NCBI GenBank assembly: GCA_028709305.1
Contig: JAQVXE010000007.1
Span: 1-47,684 of the forward strand
Source: Bacillota bacterium
GTDB taxonomy: Bacteria; Bacillota; DTU025
Length of the DNA: 47,684 nt
Reading direction: 5' to 3'
Every line of letters begins with the position of its first letter. Position 1 is the stretch's first letter. A model generated the notes under the pieces. It searched no databases. It had not been told where the DNA came from and saw only the letters and a list, made by a program, of their open reading frames with translations. This document shows, in pieces, positions 28,724 to 34,851 of this stretch. Made by a program: the position numbers and the translations under genes.

Positions 28724-31700
28724 TCAAAAGAGAGACAGCTGATCAGTTTCGGGAAGGCCATTGCACGCCCCTATCTCATTGAGCGTGTCCACGTGCGTCC
28801 TAGTCAACTTCGTGCGCGACCACATGTCATGAACTGAAGTGAACGGCCGCTCTTCTCTAGCCTCAATCACGCTTGACGCAGCAGTTTCTCCAAGGCTTGG
28901 CACGGTTATCAGAGGCAGGCGCAGGCCCTCCTCTTCCAAGGTGAAGCGAGACGCATCAGAATGGCATACATGGACTGGAACGAAGTTTATTCCACGCATC
29001 ATTCCTTCCTGAACTACTTCAAGCACACCAGCCAAGTTTCTTTCTCTTGGAGTGGCATCCTCTTTCGCCTCAATCGCTGCTCTGGCCTGTACAACACCCT
29101 CAACGTCCATGGTCGCGATGTATGCATCAAAATCGGAAGCCTTTAGGCTGAAATGGGCCGCATAGAACTCCTTTGGATAATGAACCTTGAACCATGCTAT
29201 CCTGAATGCCATCATTACGTACGCTACCGCATGCGCTTTCGGGAACATATACTTTATTTTGTTGCACGAGTCGATGTACCATTCAGGCACAGAATGCTTG
29301 CGCATGAGTTCCGGGTCGCCTTCGGCGAGCATCCTGCCTTTCCTTACCCGCTCCATGATGCGAAAAGCATCTTTGGGCGGAATTTCATCGCTTATGAGTC
29401 TGTTCATTATGTCATCGCGGCATGCAATTACCTCTGAAAGCCGGGCCTGCCCAGACTCTATCAACTGCTGGGCATTATTGAGCCATACATCAGTCCCGTG
29501 CGACAACCCGCTTATCCTCACAAGCTCCCCAAAAGTAGTCGGCCTAGTCTCTTCCAACATCCCCCTGACGAATTTCGTTCCGAACTCGGGGATTCCCACT
29601 GAGCCAACGGTGAACCCGCTCTTCTCAGGATCGAGGCCCAATGACTCAACACCTGAGAAGATCTTCATTGTGTCGGGATCGTCCATAGGAATCGTTGACG
29701 CGTCAACCCCGGTTAGATCCTCCAGCATCTTGATCATTGTTGGATCATCATGACCAAGCAAATCCAGCTTCAACAGGCAGTCTTGTATAGTCTTGTAGTC
29801 GAAATGAGTAGTGACGACATCGGAATTCCTGTCATTGGCCGGACGTTGCACAGGCGTGAACTCGTGCACATCACGGCCTTTGGGTACTATCATTATCCCG
29901 CCTGGGTGTTGGCCAGTCGTGCGCCTCACGCCAGTGCAACCCAGAGCAAGCCTCTCCACTTCCACACTGCGCTTTACTACTTGATGCGACTCGCAGTACG
30001 CCTTCACAAATCCGTACGCCGTCTTCTCCGCAACAGTCGAGATCGTGCCTGCCCGGAACACGTGATCCGCTCCGAATATCTCTTCGGCATACTTGTGCAC
30101 GGTGGACTGGTACTCGCCAGAGAAATTGAGGTCGATGTCGGGTACCTTGTCTCCTTCAAACCCAAGGAACGTCTCGAAGGGGATGTTCTGACCTTCCTTC
30201 CTCATGGGAATGCCACAGCGTGGGCAGACACCAGCCGGCAAGTCGTACCCGGACTCCACATCATGCCCATGCTCGAAGTTGCTATGCTTGCATTTGGGGC
30301 AAACATAGTGGGGGGCAAGTGGATTTACCTCCGTTATGCCGCACATGGCCGCCACAAACGAGGACCCGACAGATCCTCTGGATCCGACCCGATACCCGTC
30401 TGACACCGATTTCTGGACCAATTTGGCCGCGATGTCGTAGTTGACAGCATACCCGTTGCCACAAATCGCATCCAGCTCGCGTTCGAGGCGCTTCTCAACA
30501 ACTTCAGGCAGCGGATCGCCATACAAATCTCGAGCATTGGCGCGCGCACGCATCCTGACCGCCTCATCGGCCCCATCTATCTCGGGAGTAGCCAGCTCAT
30601 CAGGGACCGGGCGAATATTCTCCACCTCTTCAGCTATGCGACGCGTATTCGCCACAACCACTTCATAGCTGGCATCCTGCCCCAGAAACAAAAACTCACT
30701 GAGCATCTCATCTGTTGTACGCAGATACAACGGAGCCTGATGGTCAGCGTCCTCATAGCCCTGGCCTGCCATGAGGATTCTCCGGTAGACTTCATCTGAC
30801 GGATCGAGGAAATGAACGTCGCCTGTGGCCACAACCGGTATCCCGAGCTCCTTGCCGAGCTCATAGATGCGAGTCGATATCTCCTTAACCTCGTCCATGT
30901 TGCCAAGGCGCCCCGACCTGACCAAATATGCGTCGTTCTCCGGTGGCATGATCTCGAGATAATCGTAGAAGGATGCGACCTTCTTCACCTCGTCATCGCT
31001 CGCTCCCGACAGGATGGCCCGAAACAGCTCCCCTGCCCCGCAGGCAGACCCCACCAGCAGGTTAGATCTTGCCCCGTCCAGCTCATCTCTGGGGATCCTG
31101 GGATGGCGATAGAAGTGCCTCAGATGGGAGAGCGAGACCAGCCGGTAAAGATCACGAAGGCCGTCGCGGTTCTTGACAAGTATTGTCATATGATAGACTG
31201 GCGCCGAATCTGCATCTGGATCGTTAACGAGATAGGCTTCAACCCCGTAGATCATCTTAATGCCATGCTTACGCGCCACACTATAAGCATCTGGGAATGC
31301 CTGAACGACTCCGTGGTCGGTTACCGCCACAGCCGGATGCCCCCAGGATGCCGCGAGGGCAACCGCATCTTCGACATCACACACAGAATCCATAGAACTC
31401 ATCTTGGTGTGTAAATGCAACTCAACGCGCTTTCCCGGCGCCGAGTCGACTCTAGCCTGGGCCTCATGGGGAACGATGTCATGCGCCATCAAAACTATCT
31501 CACGAGCGTAGTGATCGTACTGGACCTCTCCTCTGACTTTGACCCATTGGCCATTATGAAGTTCGAATCTGGGCTCATCTTCACGGAAGAAGCACTTGCA
31601 CATGATTGAGTCTGACTTGTCAGTAATGGCAAACGCGATTATGATCAGGCCATTCCGTGTATGCCTTTCCTCGAACTTGAAGACCTGCCCCGCAACGGTC

Positions 31701-32440
31701 GCCTTCTTCTGGGCTTCATTCAGCTCAGATATTGGCTGCGGCAAGTCGCAGATCACTTTCCCCATTATGGCTCCGTCTGCCGCCTTCGCCCTAAAGCGCC
31801 GCTGCCTCGACGATCTCGAACCGCCCGCTTTCTGCTCTGGCTGAGCAGAGCTCATGCTGCCAACTGGCACTGCCGGTTCATCAAGCTCAGCGGGAACATC
31901 AGGCTCTTCAAACTCGCCAACGTCAATTCGAACCTCCGGGCGACGACCACAAAGCTCCGAAAAGGCCTGGGCAATCTCGAGATTGCCTGCCCTCTCCGTT
32001 AGTTTCTCAGCTTGCACGATGCCCGGAACCTCAACGACCACCCCTTGCTTGTCCGCCCGACATCGCGCCTGCGCGAGCCAGACGCCGACGTTGGGAGCGT
32101 TCTTGTAGACTCTATCGACTACATCGGGCCAATGCTTCTCGATCGTCTCATCACTGGGAGTCCAATCATCCCCATTGTCTGACGAGAACTCCACAGAGAC
32201 AGTGGATGACCCCTTCAGAATTTTCTGAAAGACAGTGCATATTTGATCAAGGCACTCAGATCCAGGAAAGGAAGTGCCGGCTATGCGCACGGCCCAATGC
32301 TTTGACTCCGAATCTATGCTTATGCTTTCGATCCTGCAGGAGTCGCGCAGGGCAACCGGGACACTCATGCCGGCACACTCAAATATGTGTTTCAGTTCAG
32401 CCTTGTCGCTAGATGGACGAAGTACAAATACCGTAGACAA
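28724..32440 (-). CDS. polC: DNA polymerase III alpha subunit PolC, lacking the inserted 3'-5' exonuclease domain
   Basis: 1238 aa; OB fold, PHP (ELHLHTKMSSMDSVCDVEDAV), PolC Zn site (CPKC...CPRC), catalytic VPDIDLNFSGEYQ, TTGQHPGGI; no DxETTG exonuclease motif. Confidence 0.96.
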   Translation of the reverse strand: MSTVFVLRPSSDKAELKHIFECAGMSVPVALRDSCRIESISIDSESKHWAVRIAGTSFPGSECLDQICTVFQKILKGSSTVSVEFSSDNGDDWTPSDETIEKHWPDVVDRVYKNAPNVGVWLAQARCRADKQGVVVEVPGIVQAEKLTERAGNLEIAQAFSELCGRRPEVRIDVGEFEEPDVPAELDEPAVPVGSMSSAQPEQKAGGSRSSRQRRFRAKAADGAIMGKVICDLPQPISELNEAQKKATVAGQVFKFEERHTRNGLIIIAFAITDKSDSIMCKCFFREDEPRFELHNGQWVKVRGEVQYDHYAREIVLMAHDIVPHEAQARVDSAPGKRVELHLHTKMSSMDSVCDVEDAVALAASWGHPAVAVTDHGVVQAFPDAYSVARKHGIKMIYGVEAYLVNDPDADSAPVYHMTILVKNRDGLRDLYRLVSLSHLRHFYRHPRIPRDELDGARSNLLVGSACGAGELFRAILSGASDDEVKKVASFYDYLEIMPPENDAYLVRSGRLGNMDEVKEISTRIYELGKELGIPVVATGDVHFLDPSDEVYRRILMAGQGYEDADHQAPLYLRTTDEMLSEFLFLGQDASYEVVVANTRRIAEEVENIRPVPDELATPEIDGADEAVRMRARANARDLYGDPLPEVVEKRLERELDAICGNGYAVNYDIAAKLVQKSVSDGYRVGSRGSVGSSFVAAMCGITEVNPLAPHYVCPKCKHSNFEHGHDVESGYDLPAGVCPRCGIPMRKEGQNIPFETFLGFEGDKVPDIDLNFSGEYQSTVHKYAEEIFGADHVFRAGTISTVAEKTAYGFVKAYCESHQVVKRSVEVERLALGCTGVRRTTGQHPGGIMIVPKGRDVHEFTPVQRPANDRNSDVVTTHFDYKTIQDCLLKLDLLGHDDPTMIKMLEDLTGVDASTIPMDDPDTMKIFSGVESLGLDPEKSGFTVGSVGIPEFGTKFVRGMLEETRPTTFGELVRISGLSHGTDVWLNNAQQLIESGQARLSEVIACRDDIMNRLISDEIPPKDAFRIMERVRKGRMLAEGDPELMRKHSVPEWYIDSCNKIKYMFPKAHAVAYVMMAFRIAWFKVHYPKEFYAAHFSLKASDFDAYIATMDVEGVVQARAAIEAKEDATPRERNLAGVLEVVQEGMMRGINFVPVHVCHSDASRFTLEEEGLRLPLITVPSLGETAASSVIEAREERPFTSVHDMWSRTKLTRTHVDTLNEIGACNGLPETDQLSLF

Positions 32441-32468: not shown

Positions 32469-33098
32469 TCAATCCCAGTCAACGACGGACTTGAGAACCT
32501 CCCAGTACATGCGGGCACGTGAGGCCATGCCTCGCATGGTGCCCATCTTCTCTTCTTTCATCACATGAGTTAGTCCAGGAAGTTTAACATCAACTACCTT
32601 GAGATCCAATTCTCTTGCATGTCGCGTAAGCACTGCCTCAACGCCAAACCTGGCAATATCGAGTTCCAGTCCTTCCAGCGCATCGCGTCTAATAGCCCTC
32701 TGCCCAGATAGCCACGGGGTCAAAGCCTGAGCAAGATCTGTGGCTGCTCGCCCGTTTCCGAAGATCCCGATGGTCATGTCGGCTTCCCCATGGCAAACAG
32801 GCTCAATCAAGGCGTTCACGTGTTCAACCGTCAATCCAATAAGGTCGGCATCGAGGAAGAGGATCACATCACCAAGCGTAGCCTCAAGTCCTTTGGCTAC
32901 AGCCCCTCCTTTCCCCGTGTTCTCTCCGAGCCTTATGACCTTCGCCCCATGGACCCTTGCAACTTCGGAAGTATCATCATCAGAACCATCGTCTACCACA
33001 ATGATCTCGTCCACTAGAGGGCTCGCACGCACAACATCAAGCACTGAAGCGATTCTGGGCTCCTCATTGTATGCAGGAACGATTGCAGCAACACGCAT
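32469..33098 (-). CDS. Glycosyltransferase family 2
   Basis: VAAIVPAYNEEPRIASVLDVV, IIVVDDGSDDDTSEVA, FLDADLIGL; start set at MRVAAIVPAYNEE. Confidence 0.88.
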   Translation of the reverse strand: MRVAAIVPAYNEEPRIASVLDVVRASPLVDEIIVVDDGSDDDTSEVARVHGAKVIRLGENTGKGGAVAKGLEATLGDVILFLDADLIGLTVEHVNALIEPVCHGEADMTIGIFGNGRAATDLAQALTPWLSGQRAIRRDALEGLELDIARFGVEAVLTRHARELDLKVVDVKLPGLTHVMKEEKMGTMRGMASRARMYWEVLKSVVDWD

Positions 33099-33111
33099 GC
33101 ATAGCCACCTC

Positions 33112-34851
33112 CTACTGCGGCATAAGCACTGAAAGCTCGCGGTCAACCATCTTAGTGACGTGCGCCGCAACGTCTTCAATTCCCACCAGTTCAACGCTTC
33201 GGTCGCGCCTCATGCTCACCTCAACCTTTCCATCTCCGAGGTGTTTGGGACCGACTACGACACGGATCGGGAAGCCAATCAGGTCAGCATCCTTGAATTT
33301 CACACCAGGACGTTCGTCACGGTCGTCGATCACAACCTCTACTCCATATCCGCACAGCTCTGAATATATCCGCTCCGCAACTTCCATCTGCACACTCTCT
33401 TGAGTGTTCAATGGCATTACAAGCACTTGATATGGAGCGACCGACATCGGCCATATTATCCCATCGTCATCATGATGCGCCTCGATGGCAGCAGCTGCTG
33501 TCCGCGTGATGCCTATCCCGTAGCATCCCATCACTACCAGATTGTCAACTCCGCCTTCATCAAGATAACTTACCCCTAATGCTGAAGTATATTTCGTTCC
33601 GAGCTTAAAGAGATGCCCAACCTCCACGCCACGGGCTCCTCTCAGTGCCGCACCGCATCTGGGACATGCATCGCCTGCTACTACGTTCCTGATATCAGCA
33701 ACTACATCAGCAGAGTAGTCGACCCCGTAATTGGCGCCTGCCAAGTGAGCATCAGCAGCGTTGGCACCCACTACAGCGTCTTCGACTACAACCGCCTCCC
33801 AGTCGGCAACGATCTTGACTCGCTCCCGAAGCCCGACAGGCCCCGTGAATCCCACAGGCGCGCCGCTCACGCGTTCAATGACCTCGGGAGACGCAAGTTC
33901 CAGCTCGCGAACGCCCAAAGCCCTCTTGAGCTTGGCCTCGTTAAGGTCGCGGTCACCACGTACTACCGCAGCCACAGGCTCCCCGTCAGCCATGTACAGC
34001 AGGGTTTTCAGCAACTTCGAAGGACCGACTTGCAGGTAGCTGGTGACTTCCTCGACTGTACGCATGCCCGGCGTCGATACCTTTCTTATTCCAGTGCGCA
34101 CCTTGACAGCATCATGCTCGCTCTCAGGCGGCCTCGCCGCCTCAGCGCGCTCCACATTGGCACCGTATCCACATGCCTCACAGAAGACCAGTGCATCCTC
34201 GCCTACTTCGGATACGACCATGAACTCATGGTTCTGGCTTCCTCCGATAGCCCCGGCATCTGCCTCAACGACCCTGTAATCAACCCCGCACCTGGAGAAG
34301 ACTCTGCAGTAGGCCTCATACATCTTGGAGTAGTTGCTGTCAAGGCCTTCGTTATCCCGGTCGAAGCTGTAGGCGTCCTTCATTATGAACTCGCGCGAAC
34401 GCATCACACCAAAACGCGGCCTGATCTCGTCGCGATACTTCGTCTGAATCTGATAAAGAATCTTGGGAAGCTGCCTGTACGACCTCATCTCATCTCTGAC
34501 AGTCACTGTCACTATCTCTTCATGCGTAGGCCCAAGGCACATTTCCCTTCCGTGTCGGTCCTTTAGGCGGAACATCTCGCTGCCATAATCATCCCATCTG
34601 CCCGTCTCACGCCATATGTCAGCAGACTGTATGGCCGGCATAAGAACTTCCTGAGCTCCTTGCCTATCCATCTCCTCGCGGACTATCTCCTCTATCTTAC
34701 GAACCACTCGGCACCCGAGATGGAGGTAAGAGTAAACCCCCGAGACGGTCTTCCTGATCATGCCGGCCCTCAGCATGAGCTGATGGCTGGGTATATCCGC
34801 CTCAGATGGCACTTCGCGCAATGTAGGTGCGAATATCTGCGACATCCTCAT
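33112..34851 (-). CDS. proS: Prolyl-tRNA synthetase (bacterial type with editing insertion)
   Basis: 579 aa; GMIRKTVSGVYSYLHLGCRVVRKIEEIVREEMDRQGAQEVLMP; INS-type domain before motif 3. Confidence 0.95.
   Translation of the reverse strand: MRMSQIFAPTLREVPSEADIPSHQLMLRAGMIRKTVSGVYSYLHLGCRVVRKIEEIVREEMDRQGAQEVLMPAIQSADIWRETGRWDDYGSEMFRLKDRHGREMCLGPTHEEIVTVTVRDEMRSYRQLPKILYQIQTKYRDEIRPRFGVMRSREFIMKDAYSFDRDNEGLDSNYSKMYEAYCRVFSRCGVDYRVVEADAGAIGGSQNHEFMVVSEVGEDALVFCEACGYGANVERAEAARPPESEHDAVKVRTGIRKVSTPGMRTVEEVTSYLQVGPSKLLKTLLYMADGEPVAAVVRGDRDLNEAKLKRALGVRELELASPEVIERVSGAPVGFTGPVGLRERVKIVADWEAVVVEDAVVGANAADAHLAGANYGVDYSADVVADIRNVVAGDACPRCGAALRGARGVEVGHLFKLGTKYTSALGVSYLDEGGVDNLVVMGCYGIGITRTAAAAIEAHHDDDGIIWPMSVAPYQVLVMPLNTQESVQMEVAERIYSELCGYGVEVVIDDRDERPGVKFKDADLIGFPIRVVVGPKHLGDGKVEVSMRRDRSVELVGIEDVAAHVTKMVDRELSVLMPQ

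Follow-up and report, generated by a model that had tools for sequence, protein, structure and literature searches.

PolC-type DNA polymerase III can carry a DnaQ-type proofreading exonuclease inserted into its PHP domain. The polC gene considered here encodes a protein without this insertion, raising the question of whether errors are removed by the PHP domain itself, by a separate DnaQ protein or not at all. The gene lies in a 47,684-nucleotide stretch of DNA (hereafter the window), which is contig C38 of a metagenome-assembled draft genome (G000; 2.38 Mb, 192 contigs, 97% complete) from the lineage DTU025, a lineage linked to biogas digesters (PMC4736482), as is the genus UBA10085 (PMC9600251). 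The named relatives used for comparison are uncultured Bacillota MAGs, biogas digesters being the source of at least some. The missing exonuclease is real but ordinary; the more important finding is a stop codon within the dnaE1 gene of the same genome, which would represent a new variant of translational bypassing.

Identity of the window PolC

The polC reading frame scored above both curated PolC equivalog cut-offs of NCBIfam, which names it PolC (NF001688, 1499 bits against a cut-off of 873; TIGR01405, 1398 bits against 1043), and begins with a TTG codon at 32440 preceded by GGAGG. Pfam recovered OB, PHP, DNA_pol3_alpha, finger and HhH domains, with the PHP domain in one unbroken stretch (residues 340-492), and the layout is of PolC type, with the OB fold N-terminal to PHP and the HhH and β-clamp motif towards the C-terminus (Table 1); QLSLF is presumably the residues that bind the clamp. 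The N-terminal domains of PolCs usually have no Pfam match. The gene is found in the neighbourhood rseP-ispG-proS-(glycosyltransferase)-polC-rimP-nusA-infB and is therefore the main polC rather than an extra copy; the glycosyltransferase-like gene between proS and polC occupies 32469-33194 on the minus strand. The encoded protein, which lacks the DnaQ domain, is a true ortholog of replicative PolC from an uncultured, anaerobic lineage of Bacillota.

Table 1 Features of the exonuclease-less polC gene, in window coordinates.
Feature	Position	Strand	Basis
polC, exonuclease-less PolC-type DNA polymerase III, 1238 aa	28724..32440	-	Pfam and NCBIfam profiles
N-terminal domain region, residues 1-235	31736..32440	-	no Pfam match; exact limits are those we infer
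OB fold before PHP, about residues 240-325, PolC-type position	31466..31723	-	PF01336 at 248-322; 3F2B aligned from 240
PHP first part, ligands H342, H344, D375, H376, E401	31238..31429	-	Pfam and ligand alignment
15-residue junction AYLVNDPDADSAPVY	31193..31237	-	ligand alignment; exo-bearing PolCs have ~198-217 residues here, including the DnaQ domain
PHP second part, ligands H417, C467, D541, H543	30635..31192	-	Pfam and ligand alignment
Polymerase core, zinc site (CPKCKH..CPRCG)	29006..30634	-	Pfam DNA_pol3_alpha and finger; 3F2B alignment
Catalytic PDIDLNF motif in polymerase core	30122-30142	-	sequence
Helix-hairpin-helix (HHH_6)	28751..28993	-	Pfam
QLSLF at the C-terminus	28727..28741	-	sequence

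Absence of the inserted exonuclease

As the initial annotation had claimed, no exonuclease is present in the 1238 residues (no RNase_T match to the whole protein at E ≤ 1 in Pfam), and the absence is clean, with PHP and polymerase motifs intact in the ligand alignment and the Pfam domains. A short loop is found in place of the DnaQ insertion, while the other domains are kept. Since insertion of a DnaQ-type exonuclease is not universal within the PolC family (PMC3919608), the protein is an exo-less variant that still falls inside PolC. The junction had been placed correctly at 31169-31249, although its length, given as 8 residues, was counted slightly differently: 15 residues separate E401, the last metal ligand before the gap, from H417, the first after it.

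As the source genome is a metagenome-assembled draft, a sequence collapsed during assembly might be suspected at this point, but it is excluded by the short form common to every PolC of the order that could be read across this junction, nine in all (L046, the window protein, to L049, L004, L008, L009, L148 and L021). Independent genomes of three families carry the short junction in frame, and an assembly or binning artefact was rejected as vanishingly improbable.

The structure of the Geobacillus kaustophilus construct Gka-PolC-deltaN-deltaExo (3F2B) aligns with residues 240-1238 (1149 bits), diverging only briefly at the junction, and engineered delta-Exo PolCs are active polymerases, the S. 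aureus enzyme having a kpol of 330 per s (PMC3656037); nothing structural therefore forbids the absence of the domain. The window PolC shares its domain set, apart from the N-terminal domain, with the Gka construct and with Sau-PolC-deltaN-deltaExo. However, both of those are engineered, and the PHP domain of the G. kaustophilus protein differs at one ligand and is inactive as an exonuclease (PMC5636811).

The rarity that the initial annotation had implied was mistaken. PolCs without Exo were reported in 2013 in Clostridia and Negativicutes (Timinskas et al., PMC3919608), where they made up 6% of PolCs and 16% of those in genomes with both PolC and DnaE1. In an even sample of the present phylum (160 genomes, 122 with PolC, 116 with a readable PHP region), 71 of 116 PolCs were exo-less, or 75 of 120 with four relatives added. 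The variant is known and common, and is the majority form among the sampled PolCs of the phylum. The window protein resembles those described by Timinskas et al. in its NTD, OB, PHP, Pol3 and HhH regions without Exo, its DnaE1 partner and its conserved PHP site, but belongs to another lineage, in a phylum where the exo-less form is the sampled majority and intermediates of decay are visible.

In a phylogeny built from the polymerase core, at least six changes between exo-bearing and exo-less states were required, with about fourteen separate exo-less clades (hand count) if the domain was gained once. In the genus g95, one PolC has a degenerate exonuclease (a 198-aa insert with VVLALATTG for VVDIETTG, the catalytic DxE gone) and another retains only a 39-aa remnant, while the PolC of G077 has an 84-aa low-complexity stretch at the insertion place. 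Such intermediates elsewhere in the phylum support the loss of a once-inserted domain as the route to its absence; within the window's own order, parsimony alone is compatible with either loss or absence from the outset. The degenerate 198-aa insert, the 39-aa remnant and the 84-aa stretch belong to L126 (G140), L073 (G110) and L054 (G077), respectively.

Candidates for proofreading

The PHP metal site, which the initial annotation had judged to be intact, has all nine ligands (HHDHEHCDH) in the window PolC, in agreement with the HHDHEH[C/H]DH set of PHP-type proofreading exonucleases; among them is the Asp replaced by Asn in G. kaustophilus PolC (GDVH versus GNVH in the 3F2B alignment). The same set occurs in 74 of 75 exo-less PolCs (D3E in one, D8N in none) and in 40 of 45 insert-bearing PolCs, the other five having D8N and all belonging to one clade, which makes the association between ligands and exonuclease statistically weak. 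The five D8N proteins are L160, L173, L187, L188 and L189. In Mycobacterium tuberculosis DnaE1, a nine-ligand PHP site acts as an intrinsic proofreader with proven activity (PMC5636811). By analogy, the trinuclear-metal PHP site of the window PolC, and of its DnaE1 partner, would carry out 3'-5' proofreading, although the mycobacterial protein is a DnaE of proven exonuclease function, whereas the window protein is a PolC whose activity is predicted.

Searching the genome for RNase_T identified no stand-alone DnaQ in this 192-contig draft, in addition to which a DnaE1 gene was found, with the in-frame stop described below. The domain occurs only in a UvrD/PcrA-type helicase with a DnaQ insert and an intact DxETTG motif, which is split by a contig break between L001 (C86) and L002 (C83), two contigs overlapping by ~127 nt. 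The same fusion may be encoded by long open frames of 863-878 aa in G004 and G006. Because the ligands are complete, RNase_T is confined to this fusion and the related genomes G008 and G009 have none, an exo-less PolC with PHP-based proofreading, as predicted from ligands and genome content, is the best explanation and a likely one; among the three options first put forward it is the best supported, and the others are kept as weaker rivals. The case against it is that the PHP domain of the crystallised PolC is inactive and that the helicase fusion could act in trans.

Proofreading in trans, by the UvrD-DnaQ fusion or by a small DnaQ missed in the draft, is unlikely. The fusion does have its DxETTG motif, in four relatives (G003, G004, G006 and G007) RNase_T stands alone in frames of about 204-247 aa, and the exonuclease of B. 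subtilis PolC serves DnaE3 in trans (PMC12926913). However, no RNase_T was found anywhere in G008 (97% complete) or G009 (98%), both of the same order and both with an exo-less PolC, so such a protein is dispensable in the order, and the helicase fusion is more probably a repair enzyme. Slightly more doubtful again is that polymerase-associated proofreading is lacking altogether, with fidelity maintained by base selection and mismatch repair. The exonuclease activity of the window PolC is a prediction from sequence, and DnaE3 and most DnaE2 proteins have no intact PHP site (PMC3919608), but the nine ligands persist in every one of the 41 DnaE1s examined and in all but one of the 75 exo-less PolCs, and an idle PHP site would be expected to decay, as in E. 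coli.

With PHP-based proofreading preferred, exo-less PolCs represent natural test cases for PHP-only proofreading in replisomes of the Gram-positive type, for which the phylum provides numerous independent losses, intermediate stages of decay and nearly complete genomes without any DnaQ-family domain. The source genome also encodes a third C-family polymerase (L029; G000:C155, plus strand) of ~1125 aa, which is DnaE2/DnaEX-like and has NNVH for NDVH at the eighth ligand.

An in-frame stop codon in dnaE1

The dnaE1 gene of the source genome lies outside the window (G000:C42:1989-5189, minus strand; L028). Its start encodes (M)REFVHLHLHTQYSLL, followed by TGA (C42:5139-5141, minus strand), 16 codons after the start, and then by CTG GAC GGT. 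The gene thus reads YSLL-stop-L-DGA where DnaE proteins normally read YSLLDGA, with the stop and one further codon falling inside the PHP HxH metal motif. The same site is interrupted by a stop plus one codon in 13 genomes from four families and two classes: G000, G001-G008 (f1 and f2), and G012, G171, G169 and G170 (f4 and f85, of another class). Eight named MAG records carry it; nine of the 13 genomes use TGA as the stop and the remaining four TAG. The plain YSLLDGA motif was found in the readable dnaE1 of f3 (G009, same order) and in 13 genomes of f50, the sister of f4/f85. These six families form one DnaE1 clade, on whose tree the stop site needs two state changes, reflecting a single ancient origin followed by two exact losses, or else two origins.

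A pattern search for any two-codon insertion at the YSLL/DGA point across 399 genomes of the phylum identified 13 genomes, in all of which the first inserted codon was a stop; no insertion of two sense codons was found in the 399, and a reversed-pattern control on the same genomes returned zero matches. The codons before the stop are TAC (13 of 13), TCC (12), CTC (10) or CTT (3), and CTG (9) or CTT (4). In the stop-bearing genes, the YSLL segment ranked first for synonymous conservation among 51 fully conserved four-residue segments (1.76, the next scoring 0.83), compared with 40th of 110 in the stop-free genes of f50.

DnaE1 retains all nine PHP ligands, of which two precede the stop. A pseudogene was rejected, as in the 13 genomes the reading frame is preserved and the ligands are complete both before and after the stop. 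In addition, no PolC or other C-family gene was found at E ≤ 1e-5 in G012, G169, G170 or G171; the interrupted dnaE1 is the only C-family replicase found there and must therefore be expressed. Reassignment of the codon to selenocysteine, Trp or another residue was also rejected, since TAG and TGA alternate at one site; a tRNA-Sec is present, yet unable to explain TAG. Genes of the window read normally, with PolC using ten TGG codons and TGA only as its own stop.

Decoding of the dnaE1 stop

Comparison of the 13 genes suggests a candidate mechanism, in which dnaE1 is probably, though by no means securely, decoded by a conserved in-frame ribosomal 'stop hop' of 6 nt. The peptidyl-tRNA-Leu would leave the CTG or CTT codon directly before the stop, the ribosome would skip six nucleotides (the stop and one codon), the peptidyl-tRNA would re-pair at the landing codon (NTG, CCG, CTT or CTA), and decoding would resume at GAC or GAT, giving the canonical YSLL-DGA PHP motif. 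The arrangement is that of bypassing, with the stop adjoining the take-off codon and a landing codon at which the same tRNA could pair again. CTG is coupled to CTG, ATG, GTG, TTG or CCG, and CTT to CTT or CTA, so that take-off and landing codons match at two or more of three bases in 13 of 13 genomes. The last base of the landing codon varies with the take-off codon, being G in the nine genomes with CTG and T or A in the four with CTT, in what are only two lineages and hence non-independent cases. Among the mechanisms weighed, the hop alone gives a protein of canonical length.

Readthrough of the stop is unlikely. All four letters (A, C, G and T) occur at the first base of the landing codon, the +4 position of the stop, a pattern that differs from that of a coding position and from that of readthrough driven by context, and the two-residue insertion was never seen with sense codons in the 399 genomes. 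Restart of translation, or a split protein, is somewhat less likely still: restart at the next codon fits the NTG of eight genomes, but not the CCG, CTT or CTA of the other five. Some other mechanism is improbable.

The stop hop would have parallels in T4 gene 60, an example of translational bypassing, and in the synthetic 'stop-hop' constructs of Weiss et al. 1987 (both PMC5009743), in which the stop likewise lies directly 3' of the take-off codon, the landing codon is matched or nearly so and decoding restarts downstream. In contrast, the dnaE1 gap is 6 nt, leaves the frame unchanged and occurs in a chromosomal replicase gene in two classes. A 2016 review described in-frame bypassing as shown with synthetic constructs, a natural in-frame stop hop being unknown at that time (PMC5009743), and no later report of one was found in the open-access literature. 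If true, dnaE1 would provide the first natural case of an in-frame stop hop, located in an essential replicase gene that is the sole C-family replicase in four genomes, and an obligatory ribosomal hop over a stop would have been kept in an indispensable gene across class-level divergence, where it is possibly used to set polymerase dosage. Automatic annotation will label such a dnaE1 a pseudogene or place its start too late.

When the window and ~385 kb of DNA from relatives were scanned for other bypass sites, antisense shadows overwhelmed the output, and on the coding strand of the window gene ends alone were returned; the filter missed the dnaE1 site as well, so that the scan is of little weight. 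Folding of the mRNA lends a stimulatory structure weak support: most single folds pair ACUCCCU with G-rich upstream sequence in hairpins, but a consensus RNA fold contained almost no compensatory change. An extended Shine-Dalgarno sequence, GGGGGTGRT or GGAGGTGRT, was observed near the dnaE1 start of the stop-bearing genes (L028, L030-L037 and L192-L195) and may base-pair with the near-invariant ACTCCCT that precedes the stop, whereas the stop-free f50 genes compared have an ordinary Shine-Dalgarno sequence without the extended form.
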